From Muribaculaceae bacterium (lineage in GTDB: Bacteria > Bacteroidota > Bacteroidia > Bacteroidales > Muribaculaceae), in NCBI GenBank assembly GCA_017405965.1, contig JAFQZK010000002.1:1-51929 (forward strand): a DNA stretch of 51,929 nucleotides, in the 5' to 3' direction. Below the pieces are notes generated by a model. It was not told the origin of the DNA and made no database searches. It saw only the letters and a list, made by a program, of their open reading frames with translations. The translations under genes were made by a program, and so were the position numbers. Shown here one piece after another: positions 33,444 through 48,712 of the stretch (position 1 is the first letter of the stretch; every line of letters starts with the position of its first letter).

Positions 33444-33466
33444 TTCATTAAACTAAACGATTGACT

Positions 33467-34678
33467 ATGAAACGAGAGCTTTCATGCGGTTGTGGTATCA
33501 TTGTTTTGGCTATTGCGGCCCTGATGATTATCTGGGGCATCGTTGCTGTGTTTGACATGCGTGCCGATGGCGATGGGGTTGACGGAGCAATAGGACTGTT
33601 GGTGTTCGTCGCCATCCTGTCGCCGTTCATCTACTGGGGCTATGTGATGCTGTACAAGTTCCTGCGCCCCGGTGAACCGGTAAGATTAACCAAGAAGATG
33701 ACATATTTTGGCGGTGCGGCTTTGCTGGCCTTGGTTTTCTTTGCGTTGTGGGCAGCGCTGACGAGCAAGAATGTCCCCAAAATCTCCGTTCCCATCACCG
33801 AGATTGCCCAGGAGCCCAACGAGCCTAAGGACAGCGTGGTCATCACCGAGGTGATGGAAGGTGACCCCTACAAGGAACTGGATGAACTCATCGGCCTTGA
33901 ATCGGTCAAGGAAGAGGTGCACACCATCGCCAACTTCGCCAAAATCCAGCAGCAGCGCAAAGCGCAGGGCCTGAAAGTGCCCAAGATGTCGTTCCATCTC
34001 GTGTTCACAGGCAGCCCTGGCACTGGCAAGACCACCGTGGCGCGCATCGTGGCACGCATCTACAAGGACTTGGGAATCCTTAAGAGCGGGCACACCGTGG
34101 AGACCGACCGCTCGGGCCTCGTGGCCGAGTATGTGGGACAAACCGCCACCAAGACAAACGCCGTGATCGACTCGGCGCTCAACGGCGTGCTGTTCATCGA
34201 CGAAGCCTATGCCCTGGTGCCCGAAGATGCGCGCAGCGACTACGGCCAGGAAGCCATCTCCACCTTGCTCAAGCGCATGGAGGACGACCGTGACAAGCTG
34301 GTGGTCATTATTGCCGGCTATCCCGACGAGATGCAACGCTTCATTGACTCCAACCCGGGTCTGCAGTCACGCTTCACGCGCTACATCAACTTCCCGGACT
34401 ACTCCGAGCAGGAACTGTATGACATCTTCCACCTCTACCTGAACAAGAACCAGTACACCATCACCGACGATGCTGCCCAACTGCTCAAGGACAACCTGAA
34501 CTATGCCGTTGCCCACAAGACCAAGAACTTCGGCAACGCCCGCTTTGTGCGCAACATCTTTGAGCGCGCCGTCGAGCAGCAAGCCAACCGTCTTTCGGCT
34601 AAACGCAGCATCAGCGACGACGAGCTGTCCGTGCTGACCAAGGAAGATATCGAGAACGCTTTCAAGGCAAGGAAATAA
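33467..34678 (+). CDS. Membrane-anchored CbbX/SpoVK-type AAA+ ATPase
   Basis: The 403-residue protein begins with three hydrophobic segments (about 9-27, 38-58 and 80-98), and a single AAA+ module occupies about 130-400. Walker A is TGSPGTGKTTVAR, Walker B is GVLFIDEAYAL, and sensor and arginine-finger regions follow (IIAGYPDEMQRFIDSNPGLQ, SRFTRYINFPDY). The lid ends with NARFVRNIFERAVEQQ. This is the CbbX/SpoVK/EccA clade, whose members remodel partner proteins. The membrane anchor is unusual. ATG at 33467 is chosen; the frame's first possible start (33461) is a TTG. It begins 23 bases after fcl and ends 15 bases before a secreted protein that may be its partner. Confidence 0.88.
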   Translation: MKRELSCGCGIIVLAIAALMIIWGIVAVFDMRADGDGVDGAIGLLVFVAILSPFIYWGYVMLYKFLRPGEPVRLTKKMTYFGGAALLALVFFALWAALTSKNVPKISVPITEIAQEPNEPKDSVVITEVMEGDPYKELDELIGLESVKEEVHTIANFAKIQQQRKAQGLKVPKMSFHLVFTGSPGTGKTTVARIVARIYKDLGILKSGHTVETDRSGLVAEYVGQTATKTNAVIDSALNGVLFIDEAYALVPEDARSDYGQEAISTLLKRMEDDRDKLVVIIAGYPDEMQRFIDSNPGLQSRFTRYINFPDYSEQELYDIFHLYLNKNQYTITDDAAQLLKDNLNYAVAHKTKNFGNARFVRNIFERAVEQQANRLSAKRSISDDELSVLTKEDIENAFKARK

Positions 34679-35248: not shown

Positions 35249-35549
35249 AAATCGCCCTCAATCCCTTCATTAACAGAGATTATTGATAATCCAGACGCTT
35301 ATTAATGATTTTTTAGAAATCCAACCAACCCCCCAAACAACTTTGGCACGGTATTTGTACATCCCCCATCGAACTCATAATTTTTGGAGGAACTCAAAAA
35401 CCCTTTATTTATCGGGGTTTCCAAAGATTTCGACACATACCAAGGGTGCAAAAATTGCCACCACAAAATTAGGCTATTTTTCTTGTTCAACCAAGGGAAT
35501 TTAACGTTTTTGAATTGTTTAGTATGTACATAACATGGAGCCATTGAAT
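35249..35549. other. Intergenic boundary with sigma-54-like promoter motif
   Basis: There is no credible gene. TTGGCACGGTATTTGTA at 35343-35359 resembles a sigma-54 -24/-12 element (TTGGCACG, then TTGTA instead of TTGCA). No gene begins downstream on that strand before the leftward RloC-like gene ends. The composition changes here from GC-richer core to AT-richer island. Confidence 0.45.
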
Positions 35550-37910
35550 TCAAGAGGAGAAAATCCATTCATCTTCTTCCATGCTCCACTTTTCAATCTC
35601 AGTTATCTGCTCCTCTGACAAATATGCTGAGATGTGTGGCTTATTAATATAGAATAGAAATAGCAGAACACTCTTAGCTGTTTTGACTTTTTCTTCCCTT
35701 GTGATGATAGAAGTAGTGCTGTTCAACGAATATAGGCTCTCCTCCATATGACTTTCTGCATTTAGTGTGAGTCGATACATGAAATTCCCATAATAACTTT
35801 TTTTATTATCTGGAATACTCGCTAAAACATCCTCTTTCCGAAGCATCTTTTCAAATGAAGTATTATAACAGAAGCTGGAAAATGCCTCAAGCATTCGACG
35901 CATAATGTTTCCTATGCTCATTTCTTGACTGTCATCTGGATCATTTTCATCTGTGTTAACCGCATAAGAAAATACAAATTCCAGCAATTTTTTATATTCG
36001 TTCTTCATAGTTTTTACTTCCAAATTGTTATTTATGAGTTCCATAAACGATTTGTTCCCATCCCTAAAGTTAGAGATGACCTCGTTGCGAATTTTCACAA
36101 GATCAAACACAGAGCGCAAGTCATGAGACATCACCAATATCCTACTATTAGTATTTCCCATTATGATTTTCCCAAACTGAAATCTCAGCAATGACATTAC
36201 ACCTATTCGGTTTCCATAGTCAAAACTAGATACGGGATCATCAATCACAATTAAATATTCAGAAGCGTATTTTGCGGAGTCTGTTTTACCACCAAACAAT
36301 TTTGCAAAAAAGTAGCACAAACCGAGAACGTTTCTTTCTCCTACACTTATCTTCTTTGGCTTAACTTTTTTACCATTGATTTTTAGCAAATAACAGCCAT
36401 CACCAGGTTCTAGTTTCACCTTTCGCTTACTATAAAAAACATATTGTAACTCTTGATTGATATAATTTAGAGCTATGTCTGTACGCTCTTTCTGAGCCTT
36501 AAGTGCATCAATTTCACCTTTTACATCTCGACACTCTTTATCTTTTTCTTCTAAATCGTTTTGATTGTTATTTCTATTCTCCAATGCTTTTTTGTAACCT
36601 AACAAGCTAGTCGACAAATACTTGCGAGCCAGACTATTATTCTCTATTCGAACCTTATTGAATAATTTAACTCGTTTATTTACTGTATCATTGAAGCGTT
36701 CTACACACTTTTCCAACTCGTCCTGCCCATTTTTCCATATGGCCAGCGCTTTTATATATGCCTTATTTAACTCTTCATTAAAAGGCTCCTCAAGCGCTTC
36801 ATATATATTCCTCTTACGCTGACTTATTTTCTCTCTAATCTGATTCAAGATGTTGTTCAGGGTGGTTTGAGCATTCACTGCAGCATTTAGCTCTCTCTTA
36901 TTGAGGTCGCCACTAAAGACAGGCAGTTCCATATCCACCTTAGCGTAAGTCATCAACGCATTATCTAAACTTTTGTCATATTTTTCAGCCTCATCATTCA
37001 GAATTCTGGTCAACGTCTGGGCTATGTCAGACTTGTCTTTTTCTTCAATCTCACGCAAGCATAGCGGGCAGAATTTCCACCCTTCGTTAATCAATTGTCG
37101 TGTCTCGTGTGTGTAGTGTTGAGGAAACTCAGACAACATTTGAATCAATCTGTGTTCGCGCTCGTTCAATACAGGTGCATCAATGTTCTTTTTCAACAAA
37201 TTTCCTAACGATTCCAAGTCATCCGGCAATGACACAGTTGCTTTTGTCCACGCCACAGCTTGAGCATTCTCTGACTCACGGTATAAGGTCAAGTCAGCCA
37301 TTACTTGATTTCGTAATTGGTCAAAACTTTCTTCTGGCTCTTCCAACCCCAATAGTGTATTGATCACATCTTCGGTGATGCGACTTTTCATTGTATTTCC
37401 TTTGATATCTCGATCTATATCAGCCCAACCACCATCTTCGCGTAACGCATCTCTTATCTGGTTAAAATAATACATAGGAGAAATAACCTCTTCTGCACTA
37501 TCATATTTTCTCTTTTTTTCAAGAAGATCTTCATATTCTTTTTCCTTCTTAGATAGTTCTTGCTTCTTTTGAGATATTTGATTGTCTAATTCCACTTGCT
37601 CACCAAGCATCACAATAGTGTTAATACCATCATTTTCCACCCTTACCTGCTCTCGAACAAAGTCCTCATCGAAAATATAGACCGACCCTTTTTTATCTTC
37701 GGGGATAATTGCTTCTGATGTCACCGAGAATTCTACACTTTTCTCATCTTCTGTTTTAATTAATTCACCAACACAATGTGCTATTGTTGTTTTTCCACTT
37801 CCGTTGCGTCCATATATAACACTTATCGCATCTTTCTTGAAAAGCTCTAGTTCTGTTTCATTATCAAAACAGCCACCTTTAATCTTAATTTTTTTGAATT
37901 CCTCAAACAT
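35550..37910 (-). CDS. RloC-like AAA_13 ATPase, candidate anticodon nuclease
   Basis: The 786-residue SMC/Rad50-like ABC ATPase has Walker A GRNGSGKT at 34-41, coiled-coil stretches (about 110-145 and 440-485), a CPLC zinc-hook-type motif at 281-284, signature KISVGERN at 520-527, Walker B YLIVIDDPVS at 552-561 and an H-loop MSHD at 594-597. The C-terminal region has RRMLEAF (Arg671, Glu675) and ESH with His721, resembling the R-x3-E ... H arrangement of PrrC/RloC anticodon nucleases. If correct, it cleaves tRNA anticodons when activated by phage or DNA damage. The start MFEEFKKI is chosen over upstream codons as it begins the ATPase domain. It lies 52 bases after rloB on the same strand. Confidence 0.78.
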   Translation of the reverse strand: MFEEFKKIKIKGGCFDNETELELFKKDAISVIYGRNGSGKTTIAHCVGELIKTEDEKSVEFSVTSEAIIPEDKKGSVYIFDEDFVREQVRVENDGINTIVMLGEQVELDNQISQKKQELSKKEKEYEDLLEKKRKYDSAEEVISPMYYFNQIRDALREDGGWADIDRDIKGNTMKSRITEDVINTLLGLEEPEESFDQLRNQVMADLTLYRESENAQAVAWTKATVSLPDDLESLGNLLKKNIDAPVLNEREHRLIQMLSEFPQHYTHETRQLINEGWKFCPLCLREIEEKDKSDIAQTLTRILNDEAEKYDKSLDNALMTYAKVDMELPVFSGDLNKRELNAAVNAQTTLNNILNQIREKISQRKRNIYEALEEPFNEELNKAYIKALAIWKNGQDELEKCVERFNDTVNKRVKLFNKVRIENNSLARKYLSTSLLGYKKALENRNNNQNDLEEKDKECRDVKGEIDALKAQKERTDIALNYINQELQYVFYSKRKVKLEPGDGCYLLKINGKKVKPKKISVGERNVLGLCYFFAKLFGGKTDSAKYASEYLIVIDDPVSSFDYGNRIGVMSLLRFQFGKIIMGNTNSRILVMSHDLRSVFDLVKIRNEVISNFRDGNKSFMELINNNLEVKTMKNEYKKLLEFVFSYAVNTDENDPDDSQEMSIGNIMRRMLEAFSSFCYNTSFEKMLRKEDVLASIPDNKKSYYGNFMYRLTLNAESHMEESLYSLNSTTSIITREEKVKTAKSVLLFLFYINKPHISAYLSEEQITEIEKWSMEEDEWIFSS

Positions 37911-37962
37911 AGAACCAATAATAACAATGTTAATACAAATCACACGCAATTTACTTTTTCTC

Positions 37963-38526
37963 CTAATAGTTTATCTCTGCATCCAAAATCTCAATCAGTT
38001 TATAGATTGTGCTTGACGGATTCTCGAAATCATTGAGCGATTTTGCCCTTTTAGCCGCAATCTCCTTATTATTCCACAACAGTTCTCGCTGCTTGGGAGA
38101 TAGAAGAGGTTTACGATAATCATTCCACACCTGGTCAGATGCTTGTAATCGTTTAATGCATTCCGATGATGTCATCTCAGCTCTTAGTTCCTTGCTATGC
38201 AGCAAGAACCATAGTTCAATGCATGGATTGCTCAGTAACAAGGTTGCATCAAGACTATTTAGTCTCTCATAGATGCCCTGAATGTCCAAATCATACATTA
38301 AGAATGTTTTAATATCATCGCTACTGGTCAATTTCAGCGCTTTCCTGAATTCATCGAGTTTTCTTTTGTTCACGTCATGCCCCGAGACCCGATGTACGAC
38401 CTTGATGGGTGAACGATAGTTTTGCCGAAGCAAGTCAACGTATGCTGCTTCAGTTTCTCCTTCGCAAACCACAAGAATTACTTTTTTCATTCTTCGTGGT
38501 TGAGCCTTTTCTCTCTTTCTTGCCAT
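37963..38526 (-). CDS. rloB: RloB-like / AbiLii TOPRIM-type protein
   Basis: This 187-residue protein has the RloB signature: a basic N-terminus (MARKREKAQPRR), VILVVCEGETEAAYVDLLR (TOPRIM-like Glu at about 22-26), DIKTFLMYDLDIQGIYERLN (DxD at 79-81), LLSNPCIELWFLLH (about 97-110) and the C-terminal NPSSTIYKLIEIL. RloB is the nuclease-like partner of the RloA ATPase in the AbiL abortive-infection system. It starts 2 bases after the rloA stop, so the two are cotranslated. Confidence 0.9.
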   Translation of the reverse strand: MARKREKAQPRRMKKVILVVCEGETEAAYVDLLRQNYRSPIKVVHRVSGHDVNKRKLDEFRKALKLTSSDDIKTFLMYDLDIQGIYERLNSLDATLLLSNPCIELWFLLHSKELRAEMTSSECIKRLQASDQVWNDYRKPLLSPKQRELLWNNKEIAAKRAKSLNDFENPSSTIYKLIEILDAEINY

Positions 38527-38528
38527 CT

Positions 38529-39758
38529 TCAGCCCTCCAATAAAGTCTTTATGATTGACACAGAAGATTCAACATACGGAACAGCATCAAACCGGCCTTG
38601 GATATAGGCCTTTTCTGCATCCATGTTCTCGCGGAAATCCTTGAAATCGTATAAGGAATAGACCTCAGTCGCTCCTTGCCCGGACTTATTGACGAATACA
38701 ATCTGGTCACGCCTAAGCCTCTTCACATCAATTAGGTTTGTGTTGTGTGATGTAAACAAGAGTTGGCTCCTGTCTGAAGCATGAATCAAATCCAGAATAA
38801 AATCAGCAAGACGTGTATGTAGCCCCATGTCAAATTCGTCCATCAGGATGCCCTTCTTATTCTTTACTACATCCAATAAACGGATAAGGATTTGGAATAG
38901 TTTGCGTGTACCATTAGACTCTTCCATATCCATATCGAACATCACATCTTTTTGATCCCTATGGAAAGTCTTGAAACGGAGAACATCAACTAACTTATAT
39001 GACAACTCTGATTGTCCGGGAATTGCCACTGGTGCCGGAGTTTGCTCCATTCTTGCCTCAATGTCGGTTATGTCTGTATCACATATTTCAAGGGCTTTAA
39101 GAATCACCCGTTTATATGAATTGAAACTATCCAATACCAGCACATCATTGACATTCACAAGTCCAAGCAGAAATTGGTTCATGAAATAACGATAAAGCCT
39201 TTGGGCAATGTCGCGATTCATTGAACTGGCTCGGCTAAGGAAGAGATTCTTATTGCTTGTATTAATGGCAACGTCTGACGGTTTAGCCATTACACCCGTT
39301 CCAAAACTATATTTACCATCTGCATCCCGAACAAAAACTTTTGCCCGCCTTCCAGTCGGATAATAGTATAGACTTTCGCTGAGGATTCGCTCCTGTGTGA
39401 GCTCAAAAGAATACTCATATTCTATATCCTCACACACAAAGTCAATCGAGAACTTACTCGGCTTGTTCTGCCAGCCATCAAATTTGAAAGGCTCGAAATT
39501 GAATCTCATGCCTTCGTTATAAAGGTGAGAGTCCAATATCATCCTGCAACAGAAAGTGATGGCCTTTAGAATGCTAGACTTTCCTGAGGCATTGGGGCCA
39601 AACAGCCCAATAGACTTTAAGACTTTAGTCCCGTTCCAGTCGATTACATTATCAGCTAATTCTTTCGCCCGCTGGGTATGGATATTGGCGGCCCGAAAGT
39701 CAATACTCACCTTCTCTTTGACCGAAAAGAAGTTTGTTATTTCGATGTTGAGTAGCAT
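38529..39758 (-). CDS. rloA: RloA-like / AbiLi AAA ATPase
   Basis: The 409-residue ABC-type ATPase (AAA_15/AAA_21) begins MLLNIEITNFFSVKEKVSID and has Walker A GPNASGKS at 54-61, Walker B ILMDEFD around 304-310 and the H-loop LFTSHNTNL at about 337. The N-terminal ITNF segment and the Phe-rich FEPFKFDGWQNKPSKF are typical of RloA/AbiLi and the related PARIS AriA group. It is thought to sense infection and control the TOPRIM partner RloB encoded next. The start at 39758 is chosen over a frame of about 60 more codons that runs through the promoter. Confidence 0.88.
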   Translation of the reverse strand: MLLNIEITNFFSVKEKVSIDFRAANIHTQRAKELADNVIDWNGTKVLKSIGLFGPNASGKSSILKAITFCCRMILDSHLYNEGMRFNFEPFKFDGWQNKPSKFSIDFVCEDIEYEYSFELTQERILSESLYYYPTGRRAKVFVRDADGKYSFGTGVMAKPSDVAINTSNKNLFLSRASSMNRDIAQRLYRYFMNQFLLGLVNVNDVLVLDSFNSYKRVILKALEICDTDITDIEARMEQTPAPVAIPGQSELSYKLVDVLRFKTFHRDQKDVMFDMDMEESNGTRKLFQILIRLLDVVKNKKGILMDEFDMGLHTRLADFILDLIHASDRSQLLFTSHNTNLIDVKRLRRDQIVFVNKSGQGATEVYSLYDFKDFRENMDAEKAYIQGRFDAVPYVESSVSIIKTLLEG

Positions 39759-39785
39759 TTTAACGTGAATTTTGTAGATTTTCTG

Positions 39786-39817
39786 CAAAATTAGCACATA
39801 AAATTCAAATCGCCAAA
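39786..39817 (-). promoter_or_regulatory. Promoter of the rloA-rloB-rloC-like operon
   Basis: On the complement, TAATTTTG (39786-39793) has TTTG 20 bases upstream (39814-39817), 27 bases before the rloA start. Confidence 0.7.
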
Positions 39818-39873
39818 TTTTCAGGGTATTTTTTGGTATATTATAAATTATTGAAGAGAAGGTCCACAAATAA

Positions 39874-40053
39874 CAGTTAGCCACAGTATTTGATGTGGAA
39901 ATAGTCAAGAAGGGCTTTGAAGCTATTTTGGACGATGAGACAGGTGTCAAGCAGGAAAACTTTAACGCACGGCCATTATCTGTGATCTCGATAGTAAAAC
40001 ATCTTCAAGTCACCGGCAAACCCTATCGTTCTATCGGCAAGAAAAATCCATAG
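39874..40053 (+). pseudogene. C-terminal fragment of a lost gene
   Basis: A 59-codon open stretch without an ATG, bounded by TAA (39871-39873) and TAG (40051-40053), encodes a protein-like sequence: VFDVEIVKKGFEAILDDETG, then VKQENFNARPLSVISIVKHL and QVTGKPYRSIGKKNP. The amino-acid make-up looks coding, unlike the flanks, so it is probably the tail of a deleted gene. The family is not recognised. Confidence 0.4.
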
Positions 40054-42081: not shown

Positions 42082-42831
42082 ATGGGCAATACTTTAATTG
42101 ACTGGACAGACAAAGTGTGGAATCCTTGTACTGGGTGTGAGAAAATTTCTCCTGAATGCCGATTGTGCTATGCCGAAGTCATGGCAAATCGTCTTAAGGG
42201 TATAGGGCATCCCCATTATCGTAATGGGTTCAATGTGACCATCCACCCTGACGCATTGAATATTCCATTCGGATGGAAAGGTAACGTCATGTGCTTCCTT
42301 CCGTCTATGGGTGACCTCTTTCACAAGGACGTACCCGATGATTTCATTGATCAGGTAATATGTGTGGTCGAGCAGACACCGAACGTTACCTATCAACTGT
42401 TGACCAAGCGCAGTGGCCGTCTCAAGTCGTATTTTACGCAGCGCCGTTGTGCGCCTAACCTCTGGCTTGGAGTTACGTGCGGACATAAGGACAGCATATT
42501 CCGAGTCGATGACCTTCGAGATATCGCAGCACCAGTCCGCTTCGTGAGTGCTGAACCCCTGTTGGGAGACTTGGCTAACGAAGGACTGATCCTTACCGGC
42601 ATTGACTGGATCATTGTCGGTGGCGAGAGCGGGGGAATACGAGCGCGTCCAATGGACGAATCATGGGCAATGAACCTGAAGCAGCTCGCCGATGCCTGCG
42701 GTACCACCTTCTTTTTTAAGCAGTGGGGCAGCTGGGGCGTTGACAACGTTCGCCGCAGCAAGAGCGCGAACGGTCACCTGCTTGGCGGTGTTGAGTATCA
42801 CAATTACCCGACTCCGCGTTTGATCTACTAA
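42082..42831 (+). CDS. DUF5131 (phage Gp37/Gp68) family protein
   Basis: The 249-residue protein matches the phage Gp37/Gp68 family: IDWTDKVWNPCTGCEKISPE, then CRLCYAEVMANRLKG gives a cysteine cluster (CTGC ... CRLC), followed by PFGWKGNVMCFLPSMGDLFH, YQLLTKRSGRL, PNLWLGVTC, FVSAEPLLGDL, WIIVGGESG, ARPMDESWA and FFFKQWGSWG. The Cys pattern and alpha/beta repeats suggest a radical-SAM-like iron-sulfur enzyme; its reaction is unknown. Such genes are carried by phages and islands. It sits alone between two gene-free spacers and ends at a terminator hairpin. Confidence 0.9.
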   Translation: MGNTLIDWTDKVWNPCTGCEKISPECRLCYAEVMANRLKGIGHPHYRNGFNVTIHPDALNIPFGWKGNVMCFLPSMGDLFHKDVPDDFIDQVICVVEQTPNVTYQLLTKRSGRLKSYFTQRRCAPNLWLGVTCGHKDSIFRVDDLRDIAAPVRFVSAEPLLGDLANEGLILTGIDWIIVGGESGGIRARPMDESWAMNLKQLADACGTTFFFKQWGSWGVDNVRRSKSANGHLLGGVEYHNYPTPRLIY

Positions 42832-47114: not shown

Positions 47115-47205
47115 GATTCTGCGATTAAGTGAATGGGTGCCCAGGAATATGCAGCCATCAGTCCGTTTTTGTGCTAAATTGTCATGCTAAAACAAAAAAT
47201 CACCG

Positions 47206-47255
47206 TTTTATTTCTCCGCGAAATGATATTTTTGTACCTTTGCGGAGAAATAAAA
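47206..47255 (+). promoter_or_regulatory. Promoter enclosed in a perfect 14-bp inverted repeat
   Basis: TTTTATTTCTCCGC (47206-47219) and GCGGAGAAATAAAA (47242-47255) are exact inverted repeats with a 22-base loop that contains the promoter box TACCTTTG (47235-47242). It fits an operator or a leader hairpin of the ATPase gene starting at 47264. Confidence 0.75.
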
Positions 47256-47263
47256 TTGATATT

Positions 47264-48712
47264 ATGGCTAAAATCATCGGAAGAAACAAAGAAATTGCGG
47301 AGTTACATGAGATATACAACCGCAATCAAGCCCAGTTCGTGGTTATATATGGGCGCAGAAGGGTCGGTAAGACATTCCTTGTGAACGAGGCCTTCAAGGA
47401 CAGGATCACATTTCACCATGCCGGCCTTTCTCCCATTGGCGACCATGGCAAACGAAACCTGATGAAGGAGCAGCTGCAGCAGTTCTATTTCTCGTTGCAG
47501 ATTCAAGGTATGCCGCCAAGCCACTGCCCCAAATCGTGGTTCGAGGCGTTCTTCATGCTCGAAAAGCTCCTTCAACAGAAGGACGACGGCACCCGCCAGG
47601 TCGTGTTCCTAGATGAGCTGCCATGGATGGACACTCCACGGTCCAATTTCATCTCGGCCTTTGAGGGATTCTGGAACTCATGGGCCTGCAGTCGGGACAA
47701 CCTGATGCTGGTCGTGTGCGGTAGCGCCACATCATGGATACTTGACAAGCTCATCAACAACCATGGCGGGCTCTATGGTCGCGTGACAAGGGAGATAAAG
47801 CTCACACCGTTCTCTCTGGCCGACTGCAAGGCATTCTACGAGGACAGGGGTATCAGCATGTCGGACTATGACATCGTGCAGAGTTATATGATTTTGGGTG
47901 GGATCCCTTATTACATGGAATATTTTGAGCCGGGATTAAGTCTGCCACAAAACATAGACAAGCTGTTTTTCTCACAGGGTGCCCGCCTTGCTGATGAGTT
48001 TGACCGGCTGCTATCGTCGGTCTTCGGCAACCCAGATGACATCAAGAAGATTATCATCGCATTGAGCCGCCGTCGGGCTGGTTTCACCAGGCAGCAGATT
48101 TCTGAAAGATCTAAAATCGACTTGGGCGGTGGACTGACTGACTTGCTCAAGGCGTTGGCGGCTAGCGAATTTACACGCCAGTACGTCCCCTATGGCAAGA
48201 GCAAGCGAGAGGAGCATCACATGCTCACCGATCCGTTCTGCCGTTTTTATATCCACTTTGTTATGGAGCATGACATCATCGACACCGATTTTTGGACCAA
48301 CAACATCTCCTCGCAGGCCATCGTCAGCTGGCGGGGATTTGCCTTTGAGGACGTGTGCCTGAACCATATCCAGCAGATAAAATCGGCGCTCGGCATACAG
48401 GGCGTTATTTCCAAGCAATCGGCATGGGCGGTGCAGGGCGACGACAATAATGACGGATCACAGATTGACCTGCTGATTGTGAGAAACGACAATGTGGTCA
48501 ACCTGTGCGAGATGAAGTTTGCCGGAGACGTTTACATGATAGACAAGGACGAAGAACTCAAGCTGCGCCGACGTGTTGAAGCGCTCAAGCAAACACTAAC
48601 CCGCAAGCAGACCGTTCATCTGACCATGGTCACGACCTATGGAGTCGCCCACGGCAAGCACAGCGGTGTGGTCCAGAAAAGCGTCACCATGAACGACCTG
48701 TTCGTGGAGTGA
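47264..48712 (+). CDS. Archaeal-ATPase/DUF234-type ATP-binding protein
   Basis: The 482-residue protein begins MAKIIGRNKEIAELHEIYNR with Walker A GRRRVGKTF at 30-38, Walker B RQVVFLDELPWMDTP, sensor LMLVVCGSATSWI and a winged-helix region (GFTRQQISERSKIDLGGGLT). The C-terminal DUF234-like nuclease fold has QIDLLIVRNDN ... LCEMKF (D ... E-x-K). It is a multi-copy Bacteroidales family, perhaps with DNA or defence roles; the function is unproven. The start at 47264 is downstream of the TACCTTTG box; the longer frame to 47129 runs through the promoter. A truncated relative lies directly upstream. Confidence 0.88.
   Translation: MAKIIGRNKEIAELHEIYNRNQAQFVVIYGRRRVGKTFLVNEAFKDRITFHHAGLSPIGDHGKRNLMKEQLQQFYFSLQIQGMPPSHCPKSWFEAFFMLEKLLQQKDDGTRQVVFLDELPWMDTPRSNFISAFEGFWNSWACSRDNLMLVVCGSATSWILDKLINNHGGLYGRVTREIKLTPFSLADCKAFYEDRGISMSDYDIVQSYMILGGIPYYMEYFEPGLSLPQNIDKLFFSQGARLADEFDRLLSSVFGNPDDIKKIIIALSRRRAGFTRQQISERSKIDLGGGLTDLLKALAASEFTRQYVPYGKSKREEHHMLTDPFCRFYIHFVMEHDIIDTDFWTNNISSQAIVSWRGFAFEDVCLNHIQQIKSALGIQGVISKQSAWAVQGDDNNDGSQIDLLIVRNDNVVNLCEMKFAGDVYMIDKDEELKLRRRVEALKQTLTRKQTVHLTMVTTYGVAHGKHSGVVQKSVTMNDLFVE

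Follow-up and report, generated by a model that had tools for sequence, protein, structure and literature searches.

RloC is a tRNA nuclease defined by ABC-ATPase motifs, a CxxC zinc-hook insert, a length of 658-897 aa and, in its C-terminal part, the motif Arg-x3-Glu-x(36-52)-His, often with a serine before the histidine (Davidov and Kaufmann, PMC2610378). The protein is activated by DNA breaks, even in mutants deficient in restriction-modification (R-M), and in A. baylyi it targets tRNA-Glu and tRNA-Gln; the discussion of that study left open whether RloC answers an R-M partner too, or DNA breaks alone (PMC3874168). Here we analysed a stretch of 51,929 nucleotides from Muribaculaceae bacterium (assembly GCA_017405965.1), corresponding to the whole contig JAFQZK010000002.1 (contig C4, hereafter the window), in which a gene for an RloC-type protein follows an rloA-rloB pair of the AbiL type. 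We consider it reasonably probable that this locus is a pairing of two known defence modules, assembled in a hotspot and probably read as one transcription unit, in which AbiL, and not R-M, is the partner of the RloC-like nuclease.

Related nucleases have been described together with other defences. PrrC carries the same triad class and, with EcoprrI, exemplifies the idea of a second defence that backs up a first; it measures 341-416 aa, about half the size, because it lacks the zinc-hook insert, and it is invariably linked to type Ic R-M, while published RloC genes are seldom R-M-linked (8 of 73; Table 1 of PMC2610378). RloC/PrrC-like HEPN genes were proposed to act jointly with R-M, and sometimes with Doc or RhuM-like toxins or with Pgl genes (PMC3710099). 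Since a multi-pronged defence of R-M and RloC-like genes was proposed there, R-M linkage as such is already known. Those operons resemble the present locus in joining an RloC/PrrC-like HEPN gene to another defence; in the accessible text of PMC3710099 an AbiL association is not mentioned and the term RloB is absent. An RloC-type gene paired with AbiL was not found in the literature that we searched for RloC, RloA/RloB, AbiL and anticodon nuclease. Each module is known; what is added here is the pairing with AbiL, together with a leader that changes at the start codon.

The AbiL pair and the RloC-like protein

The positions of the genes and motifs are collected in Table 1. The intergenic gaps are 2 bases between rloA and rloB and 52 bases between rloB and the RloC-like gene, whose 786 codons are counted from an ATG, with an alternative in-frame TTG start at 37949. 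The first-pass annotation of the window had described three leftward genes with these gaps and a single promoter upstream of rloA, in an AT-richer island without an R-M gene nearby, and this description was borne out, as regards R-M for the two families given below. The TTG-N20-TAATTTTG element, read from 39816 to 39786, agrees with the Bacteroidetes promoter consensus, and the 52-base gap contained no full promoter match, the best candidates being two -7-like boxes with one mismatch each and no correctly spaced TTG. The GC content per kb was 0.36-0.44 at 35-41 kb, below that of both neighbours (0.54-0.59 at 29-35 kb and 0.48-0.53 at 41-46 kb). No N6_Mtase or ResIII match occurred on the contig, in a search limited to these two among the R-M families. 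Matches of this kind were present on other contigs of the same genome, those to N6_Mtase at four places (contigs C3, C10, C20 and C39), and an R-M partner could therefore act from a distance.

The same promoter pattern had three more matches on the minus strand within 35-40.5 kb, two of them in coding sequence (39334-39302 and 36250-36221) and one at 35494-35464; because such further matches occur, a match to the pattern counts for little by itself. A scan for sigma-70 promoters performed no better than on shuffled sequence (17 matches against 14.9), and no RNA family was found within 34.5-41 kb.

Table 1. Features of the window and leaders of the RloC-like kin loci
Feature	Positions	Strand	Description	Basis
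rloA	38529-39758	(-)	AbiLi-type ABC ATPase, probable sensor, 409 aa	ORF and profile matches
rloB	37963-38526	(-)	AbiLii-type TOPRIM nuclease, probable effector, 187 aa	ORF and PF13707
rloC-like gene	35550-37910	(-)	PF13166 AAA_13 ATPase with C-terminal anticodon-nuclease motifs, 786 aa	ORF and profiles
Promoter upstream of rloA	39786-39816	(-)	TTG-N20-TAATTTTG, Bacteroidetes-type	Pattern scan, Bacteroidetes consensus
Walker A GRNGSGKTT	37785-37811	(-)	Residues 34-42 of rloC-like gene	Alignments
Zinc hook CPLC	37059-37070	(-)	Residues 281-284	Alignment, CPxC in 17/17
Anticodon-nuclease triad	35748-35900	(-)	R671-x3-E675-x45-H721, Ser720 before His	Alignment; motif definition PMC2610378
Variable slot	35501-40024	no strand	Trio in window, other content in relatives	DNA homology boundaries and gene scans
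L067			R-M leader: Eco57I-type R-M gene	
L068			R-M leader: single-chain HSDR_N_2/N6_Mtase gene	
L072			R-M leader: type III mod-res	
L075			R-M leader: type I hsdM-hsdS-hsdR	
L079			R-M leader: HsdR-type gene; kin gene a remnant, about 43 residues kept	
L073, L074, L076, L077, L078, L080			Leader: ATPase_2 gene (6/14)	
L069, L070, L071			No close leader (3/14)	

The profile matches and the gene order identify rloA-rloB as an AbiL pair. RloA matched PADLOC AbiLi (2e-80), PF13304 (5.9e-27) and PADLOC AriA (2.1e-25), while RloB matched PF13707 RloB (2.6e-22; 80.4 bits, cut-off 31.5) and AbiLii (2.1e-22) and carries the TOPRIM motifs CEGETE and YDLD, with equivalent residues in relatives as judged by eye. 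As in described AbiL systems (AbiLi/AbiLii, or RloA/RloB), the AbiLi ATPase gene comes first and adjoins, across a 2-nt gap, the gene for the AbiLii/RloB TOPRIM protein, in agreement with the first-pass annotation; the window differs in the RloC-like gene that follows and in an RloB that is a divergent allele for its RloA. PARIS (AriA/AriB) likewise combines an ABC ATPase with a separate TOPRIM protein. A PARIS identity was rejected because AbiLi far outscores AriA for RloA and because the PADLOC scan, whose library presumably includes an AriB model, returned no AriB match for RloB at E values up to 1.

The RloB of the window is likely, though not proven, to be a replacement by a divergent allele, as judged from protein identities. 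Compared with loci whose RloA is 77-82% identical, it shares only 37-45% identity, and among 118 locus pairs with RloA at least 74% identical, RloB was 59-100% identical in the 115 pairs without the window and 37-45% in the three pairs with it. The RloB tree placed the window beside L048-L050 with weak support (SH-aLRT 82, not starred). Since the RloA and RloB trees showed no strongly supported topology conflict, the case for replacement rests on the identities and on the DNA boundaries described below. A shortened rloB was also observed beside an intact or partial rloA at L048 (9092-9403) and at L108.

The third protein fits the RloC definition and is predicted to be an anticodon nuclease, as the first-pass annotation had proposed from its AAA_13 and RloC-type features. 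It matched PF13166 AAA_13 (9.6e-55; 187 bits, cut-off 36), PADLOC PDC-S06 (1.5e-37) and, over residues 471-732, PADLOC PrrC (6.7e-11). Besides Walker A, the ABC motifs comprise the signature ISVGERN, the Walker B/D-loop LIVIDDPVSSFD (Walker B at residues 553-564) and the H-loop MSHDL; C281PLC284 falls between Walker A and the signature, so that the insert divides the ATPase. With the triad, its spacing of 45 and the length of 786 aa, the protein thus resembles the RloC proteins of G. kaustophilus and A. baylyi in ATPase architecture, zinc hook, C-terminal motif and size. The CPxC hook and the R-x3-E-x(36-52)-H motif with a serine before the histidine were conserved in 17 of 17 aligned sequences, namely the window, eight close kin and eight distant sequences (roughly 23-34% identity over the matched part), some of which are near-identical to each other (L069/L070, L074/L076 and L171/L172). 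PrrC in the strict sense was rejected, given 786 aa against 341-416 aa and a contig without N6_Mtase or ResIII matches. Sequence comparison with solved structures returned nothing for any of the three proteins at the limits applied, and a three-row profile gave just two weak matches.

The first-pass annotation had also raised the concern that the third gene might encode an unrelated SMC-like ATPase. A housekeeping or repair ATPase of the SMC/Rad50 kind, not a nuclease, would agree with matches to SMC_N and Rad50_zn_hook, which are weak and below cut-off, and the nuclease function is itself a prediction. We nevertheless rejected this identity as very improbable, since the triad is present in all aligned sequences, PADLOC PrrC and PDC-S06 are matched, the gene is patchy in its distribution, with a close relative besides the genome itself in only 3 of 397 family genomes (own included), and its kin have R-M neighbourhoods and frequently broken copies.

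Leaders of the RloC-like kin

The third gene matched 10 of the 397 family genomes, that is its own genome, the three close relatives (50-63% identity) and six weak cases. Only one of 393 order genomes besides its own gave a match at E 1e-20 or better (34% identity), and none of 316 phylum genomes besides its own did so at E 1e-60. A scan of genome contigs provided 14 kin loci, which include the three close family relatives and the near-identical pair L069 and L070. The gene was found directly behind R-M in five of them, behind an ATPase_2 gene in six and without a close leader in three (Table 1), and the eleven kin with a leader start 13-134 nt behind it. The ATPase_2 domain was identified by scanning in L073, L074 and L080 and recognised in L076, L077 and L078 from a near-identical N-terminal sequence. 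Scanning also detected a type III Res tail (PF19778) in L074, L078 and L080, where it precedes the ATPase_2 gene; L076 has a similar, unscanned ORF of 129 aa, and nothing of the kind was seen in L073 and L077. Because the upstream sequence covers just 1.8-2.7 kb at L073, L074, L076, L078 and L080, a more distant leader could have escaped notice there. Compared with the published RloC genes, this clade is more often R-M-linked, with 5 of 14 directly behind R-M and at least three more in which the type III Res tail is the next gene but one upstream, while the window copy stands behind AbiL. The kin gene is broken or truncated in six of the 14 loci (L068, L073, L077, L078, L079 and L080), and the gene may be costly.

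The right-hand mobile segment of the window contains an ATPase_2 gene of its own (47129-48712; PADLOC PDC-S27, 2e-193), with the same domain that leads several of the kin loci.

A change of leader was observed directly between L067 and L068. Their DNA is 95.4% identical over a stretch that opens 4 nt ahead of the RloC-like start codon and reaches some 4 kb downstream of it, and 92.6% identical on the opposite side of the leader, and they carry different R-M genes in between (L067:582-4020 and L068:1088-3735); given these near-identical flanks, the leader was changed. Both are metagenome assemblies, and the Lachnospiraceae label of the L067 bin is probably wrong, since the locus is 95% identical to a Bacteroides-labelled contig.

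The frequent position of the kin behind restriction genes suggests a second-line weapon passed between quite different defence systems. Because the clade of the RloC-like gene often sits behind R-M genes, AbiL would replace the usual leader in the window, and the leaders recorded are type I, type III, Eco57I-type and single-chain R-M, ATPase_2 and AbiL. This diversity suggests that the clade does not depend on one partner protein; a shared signal, for example broken DNA, would agree with it. More tentatively, and as a possibility rather than an expectation, we propose that the Bacteroidales RloC-like nucleases are portable riders: each would be a complete second-line module whose upstream first-line leader is swapped in the form of a cassette that ends at the rider's start codon, and which reads a common output of the first-line attack, for instance broken DNA, so that any DNA-damaging defence, perhaps an RloB-type TOPRIM nuclease, could lead. 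PrrC is guarded by one partner protein, whereas such a rider would not be. As the clade offers naturally changed leaders, one of which is not R-M, the question whether RloC answers a partner or breaks alone becomes directly testable, with one nuclease that can be assayed in combination with several leaders.

The AbiL pair, on its side, was found without the third gene. We inspected 60 family rloA loci, picked mainly from the top of the matches listed and in several cases stopping at contig ends; rloA was found in 59 and rloB next to it in 47, and the AAA_13 gene in none. It was also missing at 29 rloB loci, which are largely the same places. Five of eight plasmid and phage records examined with an RloA relative list an adjoining RloB-type or abortive-resistance gene, without an annotated third defence gene; the other three have no gene or a hypothetical one beside the RloA relative, the plasmid gene tables being incomplete. 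A plasmid search with RloB returned no records. With the third gene, the plasmid search gave 15 records, all less than 60% identical, and four of these had no rloA or rloB in the flanks examined by tblastn; phage records showed no sign of the gene and no relative was confirmed in viral contigs.

The first-pass annotation had inferred that the three genes act as one layered abortive-infection unit, and had named as a refutation that homologues of the third gene are rarely next to rloAB elsewhere. This proved to be the case: none of the 14 kin loci has rloA or rloB nearby, and a conserved RloABC unit was rejected on this ground, together with the absence of the AAA_13 gene from the 60 rloA loci and of the trio from 14 genus-mate sites. 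The same annotation had derived the rlo names from linkage to restriction loci. The linkage itself holds, since C. jejuni M1 carries rloA and rloB inside a type I R-M locus (PMC2928727) and rloC, rloE and rloG owe their names to their presence as inserts in the type I R-M loci of different C. jejuni strains (PMC2610378); the names themselves imply no trio.

Exchange at the site of the window

The site of the window was compared with that of 14 genus mates, mostly on draft and metagenome assemblies. In G304, two stretches are homologous to the window, the flank as far as 35500 (86%) and 38537-39804 with rloA and its promoter (84%), and rloB and the RloC-like gene are absent as one whole slot segment. 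The slot there (L154 4725-9488) contains rloA followed by DUF2971 (PADLOC PDC-S31), response-regulator and metallo-beta-lactamase-fold/FGE-sulfatase genes, and it is possible that the RloA of G304 pairs with a different effector. A cytosine methyltransferase gene lies nearby in the same locus. In G328, whose contig stops inside rloA, 92 bases separate the end of that gene from the homologous flank. G283 has a Fic gene (L155 7758-8648; PADLOC PDC-S04, SoFic) in place of the segment 35501-40024, and G333 carries two pieces 91% and 88% identical to the G283 Fic protein in two reading frames (L156 7822-8708); both genomes have the same mobile genes to the right, with 81-98% DNA identity. Defence genes are thus exchanged at sharp boundaries, at one chromosomal site and within one genus. 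The site comparisons fit gain and loss alike, and the best match in a search for short repeats between the slot boundaries was only 10 bases long (E 0.036).

These results are consistent with a genus hotspot at which cassette exchange has united the two modules, and where rloB and the RloC-like gene would fill an exchangeable slot behind an rloA that, unlike them, is common to the window and a relative at the same site. By analogy with PARIS, in which the ATPase sequesters a TOPRIM tRNase until a phage protein frees it (PMC12409363), RloA would be an ABC-ATPase sensor that restrains RloB, the TOPRIM nuclease, and lets it go upon a phage trigger. As in the studied RloC proteins, the Rad50-like ATPase and zinc hook of the third protein would sense DNA ends, thereby opening the C-terminal HEPN RNase, which would cut tRNA and stop translation. 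Most likely, the two modules would be expressed from one promoter as two layers of defence, each with its own trigger and both ending in the shut-down of the infected cell. A tighter coupling is possible, in which nucleic-acid cleavage by the leader, for example by a DNA-cutting RloB, feeds the DNA-end sensor.

A true three-protein system, with RloB and the RloC-like nuclease both under the control of RloA as a single sensor for two nucleic-acid cutters, appears improbable. It would account for the single good promoter and for the slot that rloB and the RloC-like gene share behind an rloA also found in G304, but the RloC-like protein carries its own ATPase and zinc-hook parts, its close kin stand behind unrelated leaders or alone, and the trio occurs in no second genome.

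Several observations weigh against the favoured pairing of two modules and lend some credit to a rival explanation, according to which the AbiL pair and a free-standing RloC-like gene are side by side by chance in a defence hotspot, with no functional link. The combination was found in one genome only and may therefore be such a neighbourhood: rloB and the RloC-like gene, and hence the trio, occurred at none of the 14 genus-mate sites, with rloA at just two of them, and the pairing was equally missing from the kin loci and from the rloA loci picked from the matches listed. On plasmids and in phage records, AbiL pairs exist as units of two genes, and some of the RloC kin (L069-L071) have no close leader. 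Also to be set against the favoured pairing, a weak promoter could lie within the 52-base gap, the G328 contig stops inside rloA, and, given its place beside L048-L050 in the tree, RloB may have diverged fast instead of being replaced. The favoured explanation was also derived from sequence comparison, with predicted functions. We nevertheless regard chance neighbourhood as rather unlikely, since the genes share a strand across a 52-base gap without a full promoter, the eleven led kin sit similarly close behind their leaders, and rloB and the RloC-like gene share one slot segment that is wholly absent from G304.

Two further genes were noted around the variable slot. A flanking AAA ATPase at 33461-34678, with a weak IetA match (2.9e-12), adjoins the genus site of varied cargo, and a DUF5131 gene at 42082-42831 (PF07505, 2.9e-85; PADLOC PDC-M30B/M41B) belongs to the mobile segment.

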